Positions 13,199 to 38,170 of a stretch of DNA of 38,335 nucleotides are shown here, in pieces (position 1 is the first letter of the stretch; each line of letters starts with the position of its first letter). The notes beneath the pieces were generated by a model. The model saw only the letters and a program-made list of their open reading frames with translations, was not told the DNA's origin and did not search any database. The translations under genes and the position numbers were made by a program. Origin of the DNA: a virus; IMG/VR virus record IMGVR_UViG_3300042553_000291, positions 1 to 38,335 of that record, one strand, 5' to 3'.

Positions 13199-15172
13199 CT
13201 AGACAGCCAGCCACGTCGGTCGCCATTGACGCGGCGGTGCTTTCAGCGGACGCAACTGCGGCAGGTGCAACTCGGCAAACCAATGCGCCATGACAAGGTC
13301 AGTACCCCGCTTCTTGTCGCGGGTCCAAGTACACATCTCGTCCACAAGAGCCATCGTTTTCCAGTTCTCCACCATCGTCGGCAGCCGGATCGACCCCGAA
13401 CGCCACAGCGGAGGCAACAAAGCCTCGACACCGAGCGATTCGTCCAGCTTGTTCCGCGATGTGGTATGCGGAACCACGTTCACTTGATGCAAAGCCTGCC
13501 AACGACGCACAAAATCGTGGGCCAATAGATACCGCTGGGCCGCGTTGATCTCGATAATCCAATGGGTGATCGGGTAGCCCAAATCAACAGACCGGTTCTG
13601 CCACTCTTCCATGATCCCCGAATACTTCCCCGAAGCCACGTCGTAACCCAACAGTTCTTCGGCGGTCATCTTCGGACGCTCAAGGTCAATCAGATACCGC
13701 AGGTTCGTCTCGGGCTGGAACAGCCACCACTCCACACCCCAAAAGTTCTGTGCGGACGGGTCAACCGAAGCCACGGAAATGATCGGCGGGTGCAGATACT
13801 GGGGGATGTGACCAGGTCGGCGGCCACGGTCAATGCAGCCTGGGTACTCGACACCGTCCTTGCCGACCCCACCCACCGCATGGACACGGTCGATCAAGGC
13901 TTCTTCGATGTCGATGTCCTCTTGCTGGTACACCACCCGAAACTTGTTCGGATTCGAGTGCCGAATGTATGACAGATCCTTCCACGACAAACGGAACGGA
14001 TCCAACAACGGACCCTCAGGCCACGCCAGTGCGTCCTTACGCCGCGACTCAGGCCCAGTATCCAGTTCCTCGTAATACGCTTTGTAGACGATGTGGTGAT
14101 ACTTCTGATGCTTCGTCGGTTCCCGCTCCGCCCGCTTCGACACATCCGTAACATCCGAACCGTCATACCCGTCCTCGTCTAGATCGTCGTAGGTGTACTT
14201 CGCCAAACAATGCGCGTACAGGTCATTGCTCGAAAGACGCTGACCGATCACCACCAACAGTCCACCTGGATCGACGCGGGCCTCCGCCATCGAATCCCAC
14301 CGCTCGATCAGCTTGTCACGGGACGCAGAATCTTTCGCGTTCTCTGTCGTCGCAACGTCATCATACAGACACAAGTCGGCGCGGTGACCAATGAACTCCG
14401 AATCGATACCGTACGCGGCAACAGTCGGTTCCTTGTTGTCCAACCCGCCAATGTCCAACTGCTCGACAATGAACTCTTCGGCTCGCCACATGGAGCCGGC
14501 AGCGGCAGGCTTGAACCGCCCATAATCCGTAGCCAAACACCCCTCGGCATTCAGAGCCATGCCCTTCTTCACCAACTCAGGGTCAGGCTTCAGAGGGTAC
14601 GACCGCTCGAGAGTTTCACGGATACGCCGCGAATACTGCTTCGCCAGTTTTTCTGTGTTCGACCCGATCAGCACACGGATCCCACGGTTGCGGACAATCG
14701 CCCACACAGCCACATCATGGAACAACGTGGACTTGCCAGCACCAGGCGGACAATTCAGAACAAGATGTTCCTTCTCCTGAGACTCCAAATACTGAACAAT
14801 CTTGTATGCGGCCTCAACCTGCCACGGGGAGGGGACGCGACCGAGGTACACCCGTCGGAAATAATCAAAATCCTCCAACCCCTTCTTCGCCCTCGCAGAC
14901 AACCGAGAAGCCGGAATAACGGGTGGCAGACCATCCTCCACCTCCTGCACGATCTTCAGCGCAGTACGGTTGTAGTCCTTCGCCTTCGCCTGCACCTCAT
15001 CAAACTCAGCGATCTTCGCCTCAGCAACAGCTTTCCTCTTCTGGGCATCCCAACGCTGACCCGTGTTGTAGTTGATCCCCGCAACCTTCGAGGACTCCTT
15101 GATCGTCAGACCCGAAGCGCGGGCCTGCCAAAACCTTGCAACATCCTCAACCGGAACAGTACGTTTGCCCAT
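13199..15172 (-). CDS. terL: Terminase large subunit with N-terminal helix-turn-helix
   Basis: 657 residues; the DNA-packaging motor ATPase and headful nuclease. Walker A is CPPGAGKST at residues 141-149, Walker B is LCLYDD at 267-272. The nuclease domain shows an Asp in SVDPSA (about 471), a Glu in IIEINAAQR (541) and an Asp in GTDLVMAHWF (about 624). Residues 1-55 form an extra domain with GLTIKESSKVAGINYNTGQR, a helix-turn-helix like that of small terminases. ATG 15172 overlaps the methyltransferase stop (TAATG). No separate small terminase gene is visible, so this fused domain may supply DNA recognition. Confidence 0.93.
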   Translation of the reverse strand: MGKRTVPVEDVARFWQARASGLTIKESSKVAGINYNTGQRWDAQKRKAVAEAKIAEFDEVQAKAKDYNRTALKIVQEVEDGLPPVIPASRLSARAKKGLEDFDYFRRVYLGRVPSPWQVEAAYKIVQYLESQEKEHLVLNCPPGAGKSTLFHDVAVWAIVRNRGIRVLIGSNTEKLAKQYSRRIRETLERSYPLKPDPELVKKGMALNAEGCLATDYGRFKPAAAGSMWRAEEFIVEQLDIGGLDNKEPTVAAYGIDSEFIGHRADLCLYDDVATTENAKDSASRDKLIERWDSMAEARVDPGGLLVVIGQRLSSNDLYAHCLAKYTYDDLDEDGYDGSDVTDVSKRAEREPTKHQKYHHIVYKAYYEELDTGPESRRKDALAWPEGPLLDPFRLSWKDLSYIRHSNPNKFRVVYQQEDIDIEEALIDRVHAVGGVGKDGVEYPGCIDRGRRPGHIPQYLHPPIISVASVDPSAQNFWGVEWWLFQPETNLRYLIDLERPKMTAEELLGYDVASGKYSGIMEEWQNRSVDLGYPITHWIIEINAAQRYLLAHDFVRRWQALHQVNVVPHTTSRNKLDESLGVEALLPPLWRSGSIRLPTMVENWKTMALVDEMCTWTRDKKRGTDLVMAHWFAELHLPQLRPLKAPPRQWRPTWLAV

Positions 15173-15639
15173 TACCGCCCGAACCGTACTACGGCAGATG
15201 GGAACGGTGCCGCATTCGGGCCATCATTGAACCGCAACCTGCCCCGAAGAAATGTCACGCTTGCACCACCATCAATAACGAAATCATGCCACCAACCAGT
15301 ATCGGTCCGCGCAGGAACAACACACACAACAACACAACCAGCCCGTGAACTAAACAACGCTTTCTCCATCCATCTACCAATCCCCCGACCATACGGAGGA
15401 TTCAAGAACACCGGCTCGCCCCCAGCATCCGCACACCAATCCCGCAGAAAAGCATCACGCCGCGACACGTCAGGATGATCGGGGCCATACCAGTTACCTG
15501 GCACAAGAGTCGAACATTGAAGCGCAGCAGCGTCCAACTTAAATTGGTACTCCCCATTCAACTGCTCAAACAAAAAACGCGGGGTACGCCACGTTTCATC
15601 AGCCGAACTGAACGCTTGCGGAGAAGAAAAAAAGCCCAT
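15172..15639 (-). CDS. Phage DNA N-6-adenine methyltransferase (Dam-type)
   Basis: 155 residues. I take ATG 15639, seven bases after a GAAGGGA site; a TTG one codon upstream is possible. It shows the short phage Dam layout: SADETWRTPRFLFEQLN near the N-terminus, KLDAAA, then the catalytic FLNPPYG (D/NPPY) motif at about residues 78-84, and VVPARTDTGWW. It transfers a methyl group from S-adenosylmethionine to adenine. No partner restriction enzyme is present, so it is an orphan enzyme, likely protecting phage DNA or marking it for packaging or transcription. Its coupling to terL is by TAATG. Confidence 0.88.
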   Translation of the reverse strand: MGFFSSPQAFSSADETWRTPRFLFEQLNGEYQFKLDAAALQCSTLVPGNWYGPDHPDVSRRDAFLRDWCADAGGEPVFLNPPYGRGIGRWMEKALFSSRAGCVVVCVVPARTDTGWWHDFVIDGGASVTFLRGRLRFNDGPNAAPFPSAVVRFGR

Positions 15640-15664
15640 CAAAAAATCCCTTCAAGATGGTGGA

Positions 15665-20566: not shown

Positions 20567-21523
20567 CTATGACATATCTGGAAGGCTTGGCATCACAGAA
20601 TCTAAACGCCGTTGCGCTATGGCAACATAATCGTCGTTCAATTCACAACCAATGTAATTCCGCCCGTGTTTCAGCGCGACAACGCCGACCGTTCCAGAAC
20701 CACTAAACGGATCCAAAATCGTGTCATCAATTCTGCTCGTTGCCAAAACACAAGGTTCCACCAATGCTTCGGGCATTACAGCAAAATGCGCTTCCCGAAA
20801 TGGCTTAGTCGTGATCGTCCACACAGACCTTTTATTTCTGGTGCCTTTGTCTGTGTATGTGTTCCCGGACTTTGTCGCGTGTTTCGGGTCGTTCGAGTCA
20901 CCGTATTTTGAGCCGCCGAACCGGATGTTGGTTTGTCCTAGTTGTGCTGATGGCTCCGCGATTGCTTCATTGTTGAAGTAATATCGTGCGGATTTTGTCA
21001 GCATGAATAGGTATTCGTGAGATTTGGTGCAGCGGTCGCGGACGCTTTCTGGCATCGGATTTGGTTTGTGCCAAATGATGTCTTGCCGCAAGTACCACCC
21101 ATCTGCTTGCAGAGCAAACGCTACGCGCCACGGAATGCCCACAAGATCCTTGTGTTTTATGTCCGTGCCGACAAACGATGAAGACATCCGGTTTGCTGCG
21201 CTGCCTTTCGGAACCAAGGTTCCCGTGTTAGATCCACGAACCGTGTCTGGAATTGCTTTTCCGTCGCGGAAACTCGCGTAACTATCGCCCAAATTGAGCC
21301 ATAGCACACCATCGTCAGATAAAACCCGATGTACTTCGCGGAACACAGATACCAGTTCAGCGATGTAATCGTTGGGATTCTGCTCTAGCCCAATTTGCCC
21401 ATCATGGCCGTAATCCCGCAACCCCCAGTAGGGAGGTGACGTTACGCAGCATTGAATTGACCGGTCAGCAATTTGTGCCAGCGTTTGGCGAACGTCCCCT
21501 ATGAGTATTTTGTACTCGTTCAT
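20567..21523 (-). CDS. Site-specific DNA methyltransferase (amino-methylating, beta-type order)
   Basis: 318 residues from ATG 21523 (a TTG three codons earlier is possible). Catalytic motif IV TSPPYWGL lies at about residues 30-37, before the AdoMet-binding motif I DPFSGSGTVG near residue 285; this order is that of beta-type N4-cytosine or N6-adenine enzymes. A middle region with KHKDLVGIPWRVAFALQ and the long variable segment are typical of solitary phage enzymes. No cognate nuclease is present. Probably protects phage DNA from host restriction. The specificity cannot be read from sequence. Confidence 0.9.
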   Translation of the reverse strand: MNEYKILIGDVRQTLAQIADRSIQCCVTSPPYWGLRDYGHDGQIGLEQNPNDYIAELVSVFREVHRVLSDDGVLWLNLGDSYASFRDGKAIPDTVRGSNTGTLVPKGSAANRMSSSFVGTDIKHKDLVGIPWRVAFALQADGWYLRQDIIWHKPNPMPESVRDRCTKSHEYLFMLTKSARYYFNNEAIAEPSAQLGQTNIRFGGSKYGDSNDPKHATKSGNTYTDKGTRNKRSVWTITTKPFREAHFAVMPEALVEPCVLATSRIDDTILDPFSGSGTVGVVALKHGRNYIGCELNDDYVAIAQRRLDSVMPSLPDMS

Positions 21524-21535
21524 TTGGCCCAACGA

Positions 21536-34084: not shown

Positions 34085-34245
34085 CACTTACCCATCCGTC
34101 GAGCGGCAGCATTGTCCACAAGGTTCGGGTATGGCCGCCCAGCCTTCTTCGCCCGAGACTTGGCAAACGCCTTCTGCTTCGGGGTCAACGGAGTCGATTT
34201 CTTGTTCGGATTCTTGGTTTCCCAAAAGTCTTTTTTCTGTTTCAC
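34084..34245 (-). CDS. Basic mini-protein (53 residues)
   Basis: GTG 34245 overlaps the glycosyltransferase stop as GTGA. It contains FWETKNPNKKSTPLTPKQKA and a conserved-looking AGRPYPNLVDNAAARRMGK, a motif seen in small actinophage structural-module proteins. Highly basic. Function unknown. Confidence 0.66.
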   Translation of the reverse strand: MKQKKDFWETKNPNKKSTPLTPKQKAFAKSRAKKAGRPYPNLVDNAAARRMGK

Positions 34246-35339
34246 GCCATCACCACCTTGCCAGCATCGTACAACACTTGGTATTGGCCGTCGGTGATCG
34301 TCGCCGTTTCGCCCTTACGCAGCCGGACTTTGTTCTTGCCGATGTCCGCATCGACGTTGTCCAGCACCTTGACTTGTATCCACGAAACGGATTCCACCCA
34401 CTCGTTTGTGGATAACAGCGTCCCTTCGGGCAGGGTTGTCAACATCTTCTGCACAGCGTTATCCCACGAAAACTCGTCCACCTTGGGGGCATTGGCCCAT
34501 GCTTGAGTCTTGTATTTGCTGAAGTTTTCGTAGTGATCCTTCATCAACTCGCAGAGTTCGTCCAGATCAGGTTCGTCCCACATACCGCCGATCACCGCCG
34601 GCGACTTGCCGCACTTGACCCGACCCGTCGCCAAATGCGAAAACTGGATCTGGCCAGTCGTGAGGCTGACAATCGTCGGGACACCCATCGCAATGGTCTG
34701 CAACGGCATCAGCCCGAAACCCTCACCTCGAGACGCGGCGATGAAGCAGTCTGATTCGGCAAACCAACGGCACTTGTCGTCGTGGCTCATCCACTTCCGA
34801 TCCAGATACACGTTCGGGCCGAGGTCAGTCTTGGGGACATCCGAGGCGTGGGGTGCAGCCTTGATCCGCAAATCGGCATCGGGCAGACCCAGCTTGTGGA
34901 ATGCCTTTACCACGATGTCCAGACCCTTGCGCCACCACAGACTGCCACCGGCACGAAACTGAAAACGATCCAGACGTGGCACCTCAATCGCAGGGTATTC
35001 CTTGCGGTCTACGCCCAACGGCACAACCTTGACAATCGGGTGATGCTCCGCGAACCGTTCTTGGTCAATCTCGTTCGGGACGACGATCATGTCGTACAGC
35101 GGCAGGTAGCGAAGAAAACTCGACGGGATCTTGTCGCTTTCCCACATGGTATTCAGGACGCGGTATTGGCCAGCCCACCAGCCGTGGCATGACTGGGGGA
35201 TTCCCATGTGAACGCTTACCGATGCTTTATCATGCAACACAACACCCGCCGGCAAATGCGACGTGAAACCACGCCAATGTTCGCCGTAACCAAACCGTGC
35301 GTCCGAAAACCCGCCCCAATGCTGATAGTTGGTAGCCAT
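34242..35339 (-). CDS. Glycosyltransferase, GT-B fold (GT4-like)
   Basis: 365 residues, ATG 35339. Donor-site signatures are GGSLWWRKGLDIVVKAFHKL near residue 132 and SRGEGFGLMPLQTIAMGVPT near residue 205, the typical EGFGL...E pattern of family 4 retaining enzymes. An added C-terminal beta domain (VRLRKGETATITDGQYQVL, about 325-365) is unusual and may tether it to a substrate. It lies among tail genes, so virion or fibre glycosylation is possible; modifying host wall sugars is an alternative. Its start codon overlaps that of the divergent glycosyltransferase by two bases. Confidence 0.85.
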   Translation of the reverse strand: MATNYQHWGGFSDARFGYGEHWRGFTSHLPAGVVLHDKASVSVHMGIPQSCHGWWAGQYRVLNTMWESDKIPSSFLRYLPLYDMIVVPNEIDQERFAEHHPIVKVVPLGVDRKEYPAIEVPRLDRFQFRAGGSLWWRKGLDIVVKAFHKLGLPDADLRIKAAPHASDVPKTDLGPNVYLDRKWMSHDDKCRWFAESDCFIAASRGEGFGLMPLQTIAMGVPTIVSLTTGQIQFSHLATGRVKCGKSPAVIGGMWDEPDLDELCELMKDHYENFSKYKTQAWANAPKVDEFSWDNAVQKMLTTLPEGTLLSTNEWVESVSWIQVKVLDNVDADIGKNKVRLRKGETATITDGQYQVLYDAGKVVMA

Positions 35340-36096
35340 GACTGACCCGCAGAAAACCCTTTCGATTTACATCCCCACATGGGAACGCCAAGAATTGCTG
35401 AACAATCTACTTGCCAGCATTGAACCACAGATGACTGACGAAGTTGAAGTGTTCGTATCGGTCAACAAATCGTCACAACCGTATGTTCTGCCTGACTGGG
35501 TGAAATACCGCGAAAACCTCTACAACGTCGGTGGGGACGCGAACATCGCCATGTGCCAAGTCTCAACAACCGGAGATTATTTGTGGGTCATTGGCGACGA
35601 CGAGGTTCTTACCGAGGACGCGATCTCCACAACGCTGGCCGCGATACGCACAGAACCTGGGCTGATCTTCCAAGTACCCAAATCCGATAATTGGCGGATA
35701 CCGATGGGCGTGACCTACCCGAACTACAAAGCCTTTTGCGAACACCTACTGGCAACAAAAAAAGGCTGGATCATCCCTGCCCACAGTCTGATCTCAACAA
35801 ACACGTTTCCCCGAGACGCTTGGTCTGCCGATTCCTGCCTCGCCCATTTTGATACTCATTACGGATTTCACTACGCAATGCTGGAAAACCTTTTCAACAA
35901 ACCAGTTCATGTTGTCGCCAAACCGACCGTCATTGTCGGCAAACACCCATCAATATTTCTACATGACCAAGCTGTAGTTGGTGATTTCATGAGTATGTAC
36001 CCACGCATCGTGTACGACTTTCTTGACTTCATTACCGAACACACGGGTGTGCAGATCCCGCGAGCCGTGTTCAGGGGCGGATTCCCCGAAGCCTAA
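35338..36096 (+). CDS. Glycosyltransferase, GT-A fold (family 2-like), the only confident plus-strand gene
   Basis: 252 residues from ATG 35338. The fold begins at once (LSIYIPTWERQELLNNLLAS), with VEVFVSVNKSS and GDYLWVIGDDEVL, where GDDE provides the metal-binding DxD-like site. It transfers sugars from nucleotide-sugar donors. It is inverted relative to everything else: its ATG interlocks with the ATG of the minus-strand glycosyltransferase (CATG) and its TAA interlocks with the stop of the minus-strand gene to its right (CTAA). No room exists for a separate promoter between the divergent genes, and no strong ribosome site is visible. Confidence 0.85.
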   Translation: MTDPQKTLSIYIPTWERQELLNNLLASIEPQMTDEVEVFVSVNKSSQPYVLPDWVKYRENLYNVGGDANIAMCQVSTTGDYLWVIGDDEVLTEDAISTTLAAIRTEPGLIFQVPKSDNWRIPMGVTYPNYKAFCEHLLATKKGWIIPAHSLISTNTFPRDAWSADSCLAHFDTHYGFHYAMLENLFNKPVHVVAKPTVIVGKHPSIFLHDQAVVGDFMSMYPRIVYDFLDFITEHTGVQIPRAVFRGGFPEA

Positions 36097-36368
36097 CGAT
36101 TCGGCAGAATGCCAGTTTCTACCTGCCACGCCTCTTTCGCGCGGCGTTCCACTTCGGCGGCTCCGTCGATTTTTTTCGGCTGCAACCCGTTCTGCCGTAG
36201 TCTCTTGTAGGCCGGCATATCTTGCTGCCAGCCACGCTCACGCTTGTTGATCTCATCGACCACCGCGCCTCGACTTGTCGTCGTATTCGTACCCATGCGG
36301 ATGCCAGCAACCTTGCAACCAAAACAGCCCTCCATGTCTAGGTTGGGATGCACTTCTTGATGCTTCAC
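36093..36368 (-). CDS. Structural-region protein with CFGCK motif (91 residues)
   Basis: GTG 36368 overlaps the preceding stop as GTGA. The sequence has DMEGCFGCKVAGIRMG, TTTSRGAVVDEINKRERGWQ and MPAYKRLRQNGLQPKKIDGA, a recurring small protein of actinophage structural regions. CxxC and its strong conservation suggest a specific structural or assembly role, not known to me. Its stop overlaps that of the convergent glycosyltransferase. Confidence 0.72.
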   Translation of the reverse strand: MKHQEVHPNLDMEGCFGCKVAGIRMGTNTTTSRGAVVDEINKRERGWQQDMPAYKRLRQNGLQPKKIDGAAEVERRAKEAWQVETGILPNR

Positions 36369-36661
36369 GTTATGTATGCCCCGTATCCAGCAGCAGTCAG
36401 GTCAGCGACCTCCTGCTCGTCCACTTCGATGTCGTGGCCCCCATAATAGACCTTGACGATCAGGTCATAGTCGGACGGTTGTCCGTCGGTGTAGGTGCCG
36501 TCAACAAGTTTGTAGATGTTGCGACCGCGTGACGCATTGCGGATGTGGTAACCAAGTTGGTTGGCGAAGCGTTCGTCAATGGAAAGTGGGAATGCCCCAC
36601 TCGGATCTTCTGGCAGTACGAATGCCACAAAGTTGTCGGTTGGTGGTCTGAATGTAGCCAT
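36365..36661 (-). CDS. Small fibre-associated protein sharing the C-terminal domain of its neighbour (98 residues)
   Basis: ATG 36661 shares its A with the preceding stop (TAATG). Its last 50 residues (NIYKLVDGTYTDG, then VKVYYGGHDI, EV, LTAAGYGAYIT) match the C-terminus of the 353-residue repeat protein encoded just upstream. The N-terminal half (VLPEDPSGAFPLSIDERFAN) differs but aligns loosely with the region before the shared domain. A tail-tip or fibre role is likely by association. Confidence 0.68.
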   Translation of the reverse strand: MATFRPPTDNFVAFVLPEDPSGAFPLSIDERFANQLGYHIRNASRGRNIYKLVDGTYTDGQPSDYDLIVKVYYGGHDIEVDEQEVADLTAAGYGAYIT

Positions 36662-37722
36662 TAGGTGATGTACGCTCCGTAACCCGCTGCGGTCAATTCT
36701 CCCACTTCGGTGTCATCCAAGAAAATGTCGTGACCACCGTAGTAGACCTTGACGACAAGTTCAGGGCGACGGGGATCCGTGGTTGTGTACGTCCCGTTGG
36801 TCAGCTTGTACAAATTGTCAGCCCGCAGACCTTTCGGCGTGAACGAGAACAGCCGGTCCGCGTCGGTTTCCCCGAGCCTCTGGGCGTAGCCCACCTTCTG
36901 TTTGGCGGGGACGCGGAAGATCCGAGACTTGACCCACACCGCCGTGCCAGACCCGTTGCCCGTGTTCGTCCCCGACACCCGAACGACCCTCGCCCCTACA
37001 ACGACCTGTGTGCCTGCCCCAGATCCCGTGGCGGTTCTTGGCGCAATATGTAGCCCAGACGCAGCAGACGAGCCTACAGAGGCGTTAAAAGCCGTTCTGG
37101 GGGCAATGTGCAGCCCGTCAGCAGCCGATGTCCCAGCCCCAGATCCTGTGGCCATCCTGGCTCGAGTCGAGGAACCATCCGCCGTTGCCGACCCAGTCCC
37201 AGAACCCGTCGCCGTACGAATGACAACGATGACTTCGACCGACGACGACGTGCCAGCCCCCGAGCCGGTAGCGGTACGGGCGTAGACGATAGCCCCAACA
37301 GCTGCGCCTGCACCCGTACCTGACCCCGTTGCCGTGCGGACACGAATGTAATCCCCATCAGCCGACTGCGTACCCTGCCCAGATCCTGTTGCCGTACGCG
37401 GCGCAATGTGAACACCTGTTACTGAAGCCGATCCCGTGCCGGATCCTGTGGCCGTCCTCGGTGCGATGTGTAGACCTGCAACGGTTGCAGATCCCGTACC
37501 CGACCCCGTCGCAGTACGCGGAGCGATATGCACCCCAGTAGCAGACTGCGTCCCTGCACCAGAACCCGTCGCGGTGCGGAACTTGATGACAACATTGACC
37601 GTCGTCGCGGTACCAGTACCAGACCCTGTGGCCGTACGATCCTTGATCGGGCCAAGGTAAAACTGCCCACCATTGACAAACCCGAAGGTGAAGTCTGTGA
37701 GCCTGTCAAGCGGCGAAGCCAC
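36661..37722 (-). CDS. Repeat-rich fibre-like protein (353 residues, about eleven 20-residue repeats)
   Basis: GTG 37722 with GGGGTAGGCG upstream. After a 28-residue start (FTFGFVNGGQFYLGPIKD), residues 29-248 consist of about eleven copies of a 20-residue unit RTATGSGxGxxxxxGxHIAP, then VSGTNTGNGSGTAVWVKSRI, and a 50-residue C-terminal domain ending LTAAGYGAYIT that is repeated in the next gene. The regular Gly/Ser/Thr units suggest a beta-solenoid or extended fibre shaft. It is a structural, probably adsorption-related protein. Confidence 0.75.
   Translation of the reverse strand: MASPLDRLTDFTFGFVNGGQFYLGPIKDRTATGSGTGTATTVNVVIKFRTATGSGAGTQSATGVHIAPRTATGSGTGSATVAGLHIAPRTATGSGTGSASVTGVHIAPRTATGSGQGTQSADGDYIRVRTATGSGTGAGAAVGAIVYARTATGSGAGTSSSVEVIVVIRTATGSGTGSATADGSSTRARMATGSGAGTSAADGLHIAPRTAFNASVGSSAASGLHIAPRTATGSGAGTQVVVGARVVRVSGTNTGNGSGTAVWVKSRIFRVPAKQKVGYAQRLGETDADRLFSFTPKGLRADNLYKLTNGTYTTTDPRRPELVVKVYYGGHDIFLDDTEVGELTAAGYGAYIT
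36979..37638. repeat. Tandem 60-base coding repeats
   Basis: About eleven 60-base units, each encoding a 20-residue RTATGSG unit, with the repeat core better conserved than the ends. The units are in frame, so loss or gain of one keeps the protein readable. At least three units retain GLHIAP or GVHIAP exactly. Confidence 0.85.
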
Positions 37723-37733
37723 CGCCTACCCCG

Positions 37734-38096
37734 CTAGTCCAGCGACAGCGTCAGCGATGTGATCTGAAAAGTGTCGCCCGCCGTAACAGCAGCCGAAGAT
37801 GACAACGCACCCGACCACAAGCAGTTGCCAGCAGAAGCGTTGTCCCACAACGACCAATGGCTGTACGTCTCGGTTGCGGCGACGTTCGTCCATTCCAGCG
37901 TTGCCGACGAAGCCAACGATCCGCTCGATGCAGCAGACCACGACACCGACTTGCGGGTCGTCTCCGTCGCAGCGTTCGACGTGCCAGCCTCACCAGGGTC
38001 ACCGGTGTGCAACTTGACGTAGGTTGTGGTGACCGCAAACGACTGGTTGCGAAGCGTGTCAAGCAGAGCGTTCTCGGCGTAGTTGGAAATCGACAT
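37734..38096 (-). CDS. Tail-fibre-like structural protein (120 residues)
   Basis: ATG 38096 with GAGGTAAC upstream. YVKLHTGDPGEAGTSNAATE is a pattern seen in many actinophage fibre- or capsid-decoration-type proteins; the rest is beta-rich (TETYSHWSLWDNASAGNCLW, then TFQITSLTLSLD). It is the first gene after the capsid terminator. Tail fibre or head decoration are both possible. Confidence 0.68.
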   Translation of the reverse strand: MSISNYAENALLDTLRNQSFAVTTTYVKLHTGDPGEAGTSNAATETTRKSVSWSAASSGSLASSATLEWTNVAATETYSHWSLWDNASAGNCLWSGALSSSAAVTAGDTFQITSLTLSLD

Positions 38097-38121
38097 GGGT
38101 TACCTCGTTCGTGATAATAGC

Positions 38122-38147
38122 AAAAGCCCCCCGCTTGCGCAGGGGGC
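38122..38147 (-). terminator. Intrinsic terminator after the major capsid gene
   Basis: On the minus strand a nine-pair stem (GCCCCCTGC with GCGGGGGGC, one T-G) closes a GCAA tetraloop, a stable GNRA-type loop, and is followed by TTTT. It lies 24 bases after the capsid stop, separating very high capsid expression from the fibre genes. Confidence 0.85.
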
Positions 38148-38170
38148 CGATGCTACACGGGTTGGTCGTG

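Follow-up and report, generated by a model that had tools for sequence, protein, structure and literature searches.

Bacterial bidirectional promoters built on a symmetric -10 element most commonly separate their divergent start sites by 18 bp, because at this distance the -7T and the -11A coincide on both strands (PMC10268837, PMC12825309). In mycobacteria the -10 element takes the form TANNNT, and a quarter of the genes are leaderless (PMC3898074). Glycosyltransferases of actinobacteriophages have in turn been linked to glycosylated virions, as discussed in PMC13313380 and PMC11256854. The locus described here centres on GT2, a family-2 glycosyltransferase gene, and its divergent neighbour GT4, a GT4-type glycosyltransferase gene. 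We consider it probable that GT2 is an accessory gene of the moron type, inserted antisense in an operon of virion genes with its orientation fixed, and that the spacer separating it from GT4 in related lineages serves as a bidirectional leaderless promoter. Among the papers searched on phage morons and on phage bidirectional leaderless promoters, no close parallel was found.

The stretch of DNA analysed (the window) corresponds to a 38335-base virus record, the two ends of which (positions 1 and 38335) are adjacent in contigs L001, L002 and L003, with an overlap of approximately 91 bases; this suggests that the genome is complete and was opened at a terminal repeat. Codon-usage scoring placed the convincing genes of the window on the minus strand only, GT2 excepted (35338-36096, plus strand, 252 aa), and found no other convincing plus-strand gene, in agreement with the first-pass annotation of this DNA, which had regarded GT2 as the sole confident gene of that strand. 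The same annotation had described start and stop codons interlocking with both neighbours, and the coordinates bear this out. The plus-strand ATG of GT2 (35338-35340) and the minus-strand ATG (35339-35337) of GT4 (34242-35339, minus strand, 365 aa) lie in a common CATG at 35337-35340, while the GT2 TAA (36094-36096) and the TAG (36095-36093) of the convergent minus-strand gene P3 (36093-36368, 91 aa, phrog_24600), the conserved anchor of the site, lie in a common CTAA at 36093-36096. As CATG is palindromic, two ATG codons can interlock there without cost. Mis-assigned starts, which would remove the interlock, were looked for and ruled out: no other ATG, GTG or TTG start is present near the conserved N-terminus of GT4, and the only alternative for GT2, a TTG at 35329, would deepen the overlap, so that the start interlock does not depend on a doubtful start. 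Three independent contigs (L001, L002 and L003) have exactly the same interlock. Its stop component recurs in related GT2-carrying lineages as a GT2/P3 overlap of 4 to 7 nt, with the same 4 nt in most, and its start component is restricted to the window's clade, the GT2 and GT4 starts being 16-19 nt apart elsewhere. The interlock is real, and it is accounted for by the insertion of one cargo gene together with tight packing, with no switch. In the region around CATG (35293-35513) the window shows almost no differences from L002, including none over approximately the first 180 nt of GT2, and both flanks have diverged; either constraint or a tract of recombination could account for this similarity, which was given no weight as evidence.

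That GT2 is a spurious open reading frame was ruled out by its match to a protein family and by its pattern of substitution. It scores 29.3 bits against Pfam PF00535, above the curated cut-off of 23.3 for this family, and its GDD motif is conserved in eight of eight members. The score of GT2 in the codon-usage scan is low, the scan having been trained on minus-strand genes. Comparison with two relatives gave 10/13/36 and 13/14/44 substitutions at the first, second and third codon positions, respectively, the third position dominating in both, and a dN/dS of approximately 0.2. Part of the amino acid change stems from a divergent patch at 35934-35993, which differs at 26 of its 60 bases from L001 and L002, themselves identical there; this patch looks like a recombined segment.

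Relatives were collected by matches to P3, GT4 and GT2, and the interval between P3 and GT4 was compared. P3 runs directly into GT4 in 105 of 122 distinct junctions, the codons of the two genes often overlapping, as in L015 (...GACAAATGAACTATCAA...), with P3 ending and GT4 starting in a common ATGA; the window junction, read in the direction of P3, is ...GAATCGTTAGGC...GTCAGTCATGGCTACCAACTATCAG. A GT2 belonging to one clade with that of the window is present in ten of the 122 junctions, and is never co-directional. Two other co-directional genes, encoding a protein of the GT2 family and another of 304 aa, are found in three junctions (L006-L008 type), and the last four have P5 as the next gene recognised. 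In close pairs (L251/L091, and the window compared with L007 and L015) the borders of the cassette fall at the end of P3 and the start of GT4. The cleanest pair consists of L251, which is insert-free, and L091, which carries the insert, with P3 93% and GT4 92% alike. Homology between the window and L007, which has the two other genes at this site, breaks off at 36100 and is regained at 35330, which puts the swapped segment at 35331-36099, almost exactly the interval delimited in the first-pass annotation. Insertion of exactly one gene, one of several origins proposed there, is thereby upheld, as a clean cassette is present in some relatives and absent from others, with the same neighbours in both cases.

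GT2 would thus be cargo that was inserted antisense at the P3-GT4 junction and has retained a fixed orientation. It resembles phage morons in being a single additional gene of a virion-gene region that some close relatives have and others lack, and in its clean borders. It differs from morons, which often have their own promoter, in that it is antisense and overlaps codons of both neighbours, that no terminator of its own is apparent, and that the candidate promoter of the relatives would also serve the neighbouring gene. As the GT2 stop overlaps that of P3, a terminator cannot fit between the two genes, and terminator-like sites in the GT2 region are no commoner than in shuffled sequences. 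Further upstream on the minus strand, a gp80-like gene is preceded at 38096-38148 by a strong terminator-like hairpin, a TATTAT and a GAGGT ribosome site, in that order, making this region a candidate start of the operon that contains P3 and GT4. An endonuclease VII-like gene (PF02945) lies antisense between P4 and P3 in one relative (L008:3456-3947, minus strand), representing a second antisense insertion one gene away from the P3-GT4 site.

A single gene that runs opposite to all others, with borders at the gene ends, is also what might be expected of a phase-variable invertible segment switching itself or its neighbour on or off, and an invertible segment had been among the first proposals. 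However, the antisense GT2 genes group in a single clade (support 100/97), each of the 12 contigs containing one shows it in the same orientation even though the encoded proteins have diverged deeply (48-93% identity), a search for inverted repeats flanking the GT2 borders found none, and no invertase was detected among the window proteins scanned. For want of inverted repeats and of any opposite orientation among the 12 contigs, phase variation was rejected as unsupported, and we regard it as scarcely credible, although a rare inverted form may exist. An ancestral co-directional GT2 could alternatively have turned once in place and then become fixed. In a more distant group (L108-L115) a co-directional GT2 lies exactly between P3 and GT4, flanked by the same two neighbours as the antisense gene, and in L076 a co-directional GT2 is located upstream of P3. 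Yet the co-directional and antisense genes are on different branches of the family, at approximately 30% identity, which makes separate acquisitions likelier than inversion, and two cellular sequences group with the antisense clade (92/86), albeit on long branches whose order is uncertain. Inversion in place is consequently not favoured, and appears improbable to us.

While insertion explains the interlock, the relatives are of greater interest: their GT2/GT4 junction resembles a bidirectional promoter of very small size. In five related lineages (L089, L090, L091, L093 and L095) the GT2 and GT4 starts face away from each other across a spacer of 16-19 nt, and each of these spacers contains one TANNNT directed toward GT2 and another directed toward GT4, positioned 6-7 nt before the respective start codon. 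The core reads TAGAATA in L090 and L093, TAGACTA in L091 and L095, and TAAAGTGTA in L089. L093 and L095 each use GTG for one gene of the pair. The ten starts of these lineages have weak Shine-Dalgarno energies (0 to -4.0), as compared to -5 to -12 for most genes of the window, although several window genes are weak too. Both motifs occur in 0.3% of random 17-mers drawn from these contigs; the TANNNT motif was noticed by inspection in five related spacers, and such figures serve as a guide and not as a formal test. Provided that transcription begins at the start codons, all five lineages possess a symmetric -10 with starts approximately 18 bp apart, and their spacer fits a bidirectional leaderless promoter. 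The relatives resemble the bacterial symmetric -10 promoters (PMC10268837, PMC12825309) in the distance between their divergent starts, the A residues of the two start codons being 17-20 bp apart in the five lineages and 18 bp apart in L090 and L093. They differ in that the start sites are here equated with the start codons, from sequence alone, and in that the window's own clade is without the symmetric -10. The likeness to mycobacterial leaderless genes (PMC3898074) consists of a TANNNT 6-7 nt before an ATG or GTG with no clear Shine-Dalgarno sequence; the present case differs in that it concerns a phage, for which an actinobacterial host is at most plausible, and in that two genes share one element.

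In these five lineages the cassette would carry its own start of expression, with the TANNNT motifs of the spacer acting as a -10 in each direction, and would give rise to a leaderless mRNA for GT2 on one strand and for GT4 on the other. GT4, which the insert cuts off from P3, would then be transcribed from the spacer of the cassette. We tentatively put forward a minimal antisense cassette with a symmetric promoter of 16-19 bp, in which starts of transcription coincide with start codons and leaderless mRNAs supply both the cargo and the cut-off gene, and whose promoter may have been replaced in the window's clade by start codons that moved in. It is also conceivable, though in our judgement rather unlikely, that the antisense cargo is fixed but that the TANNNT symmetry is a matter of inherited chance, expression being achieved by readthrough or from a promoter elsewhere. 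Such a reading would suit the window's clade, which manages without the motif, and the small number of related spacers, inspected after the fact. Against chance, the core is identical and the flanks have diverged in both close pairs (L090/L093 and L091/L095), and the motif is found at that distance upstream of none of the 105 insert-free GT4 starts.

The window's clade represents the exception to the symmetric arrangement. When the NYQ residues of GT4 and the LSIY residues of GT2 are aligned, the start positions used elsewhere map to 35331-35333 (GT4) and 35350-35352 (GT2) of the window, and the 16 bases between them (35334-35349), the former spacer, now read AGCCATGACTGACCCG and are devoid of TANNNT. 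GT4 of the window is extended by two codons at its start and GT2 by four, so that both begin at CATG inside the former spacer. The methionine before NYQ is the GT4 start in insert-free relatives such as L015 and in four of the five lineages, with a GTG there in L095, and since the L015-type relatives and the five lineages all start before NYQ, the GT4 start of the window is probably derived. No TANNNT was found at leaderless distance from the GT2 or GT4 start of the window on either strand, and sigma-70 promoter and terminator scans yielded nothing clearly beyond chance. In the window's clade both genes would start inside the former spacer, with the motif gone and the two starts meeting at CATG, and GT2 of the window would have to use a promoter inside GT4. 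The earlier statement that every promoter for GT2 must lie within the opposing gene is therefore valid for the window, but not for the relatives, where a spacer of 16-19 nt separates the two starts. The suggestion of a separate promoter for GT2 finds indirect support in the candidate of the five related lineages, and no motif to support it in the window's clade. If the proposed cassette is correct, it would show how a phage accepts cargo in the 'wrong' direction within a tightly overlapping operon with downstream expression kept, and the natural variants (insert-free, symmetric-promoter and promoter-lost) allow a direct test of the bidirectional leaderless promoter model.

With respect to function, family membership and the invariant GDD motif indicate that GT2 is a nucleotide-sugar-dependent transferase. 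The structure model of GT2 has a mean pLDDT of only 61, and the best PDB matches of this weak model are transferases of the GT-A type (TM approximately 0.4-0.5), including wall teichoic acid and polysaccharide glycosyltransferases. On the basis of its family and position, GT2 probably acts jointly with GT4 to glycosylate a virion protein or a polymer of the host surface; virion decoration is our preferred guess, with modification of the host surface as the alternative. The neighbours of GT2 and GT4 are virion genes, and the presence of glycosyltransferase genes in such a region is shared with the actinobacteriophage enzymes implicated in virion glycosylation, from which GT2 differs in having no match among deposited phages and in that its acceptor is putative. 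Cellular matches to GT2 are at most approximately 34% identical and name no donor, and distant relatives of GT4 are found in Streptomyces phages. The terminase and minor tail protein of the window are likewise closest to Streptomyces phages, at 24-28% identity, and these distant matches suggest that an actinobacterial host is plausible. Beside the glycosyltransferase genes, a minus-strand gene at 36661-37722 (phrog_23524) encodes a Thr/Ser/Gly-rich protein with repeated RTATGSGTG units, the C-terminal part of which resembles P4. Elsewhere on the minus strand, two DNA methyltransferase-like genes (15172-15642 and 20567-21532) are present in this one small phage genome.
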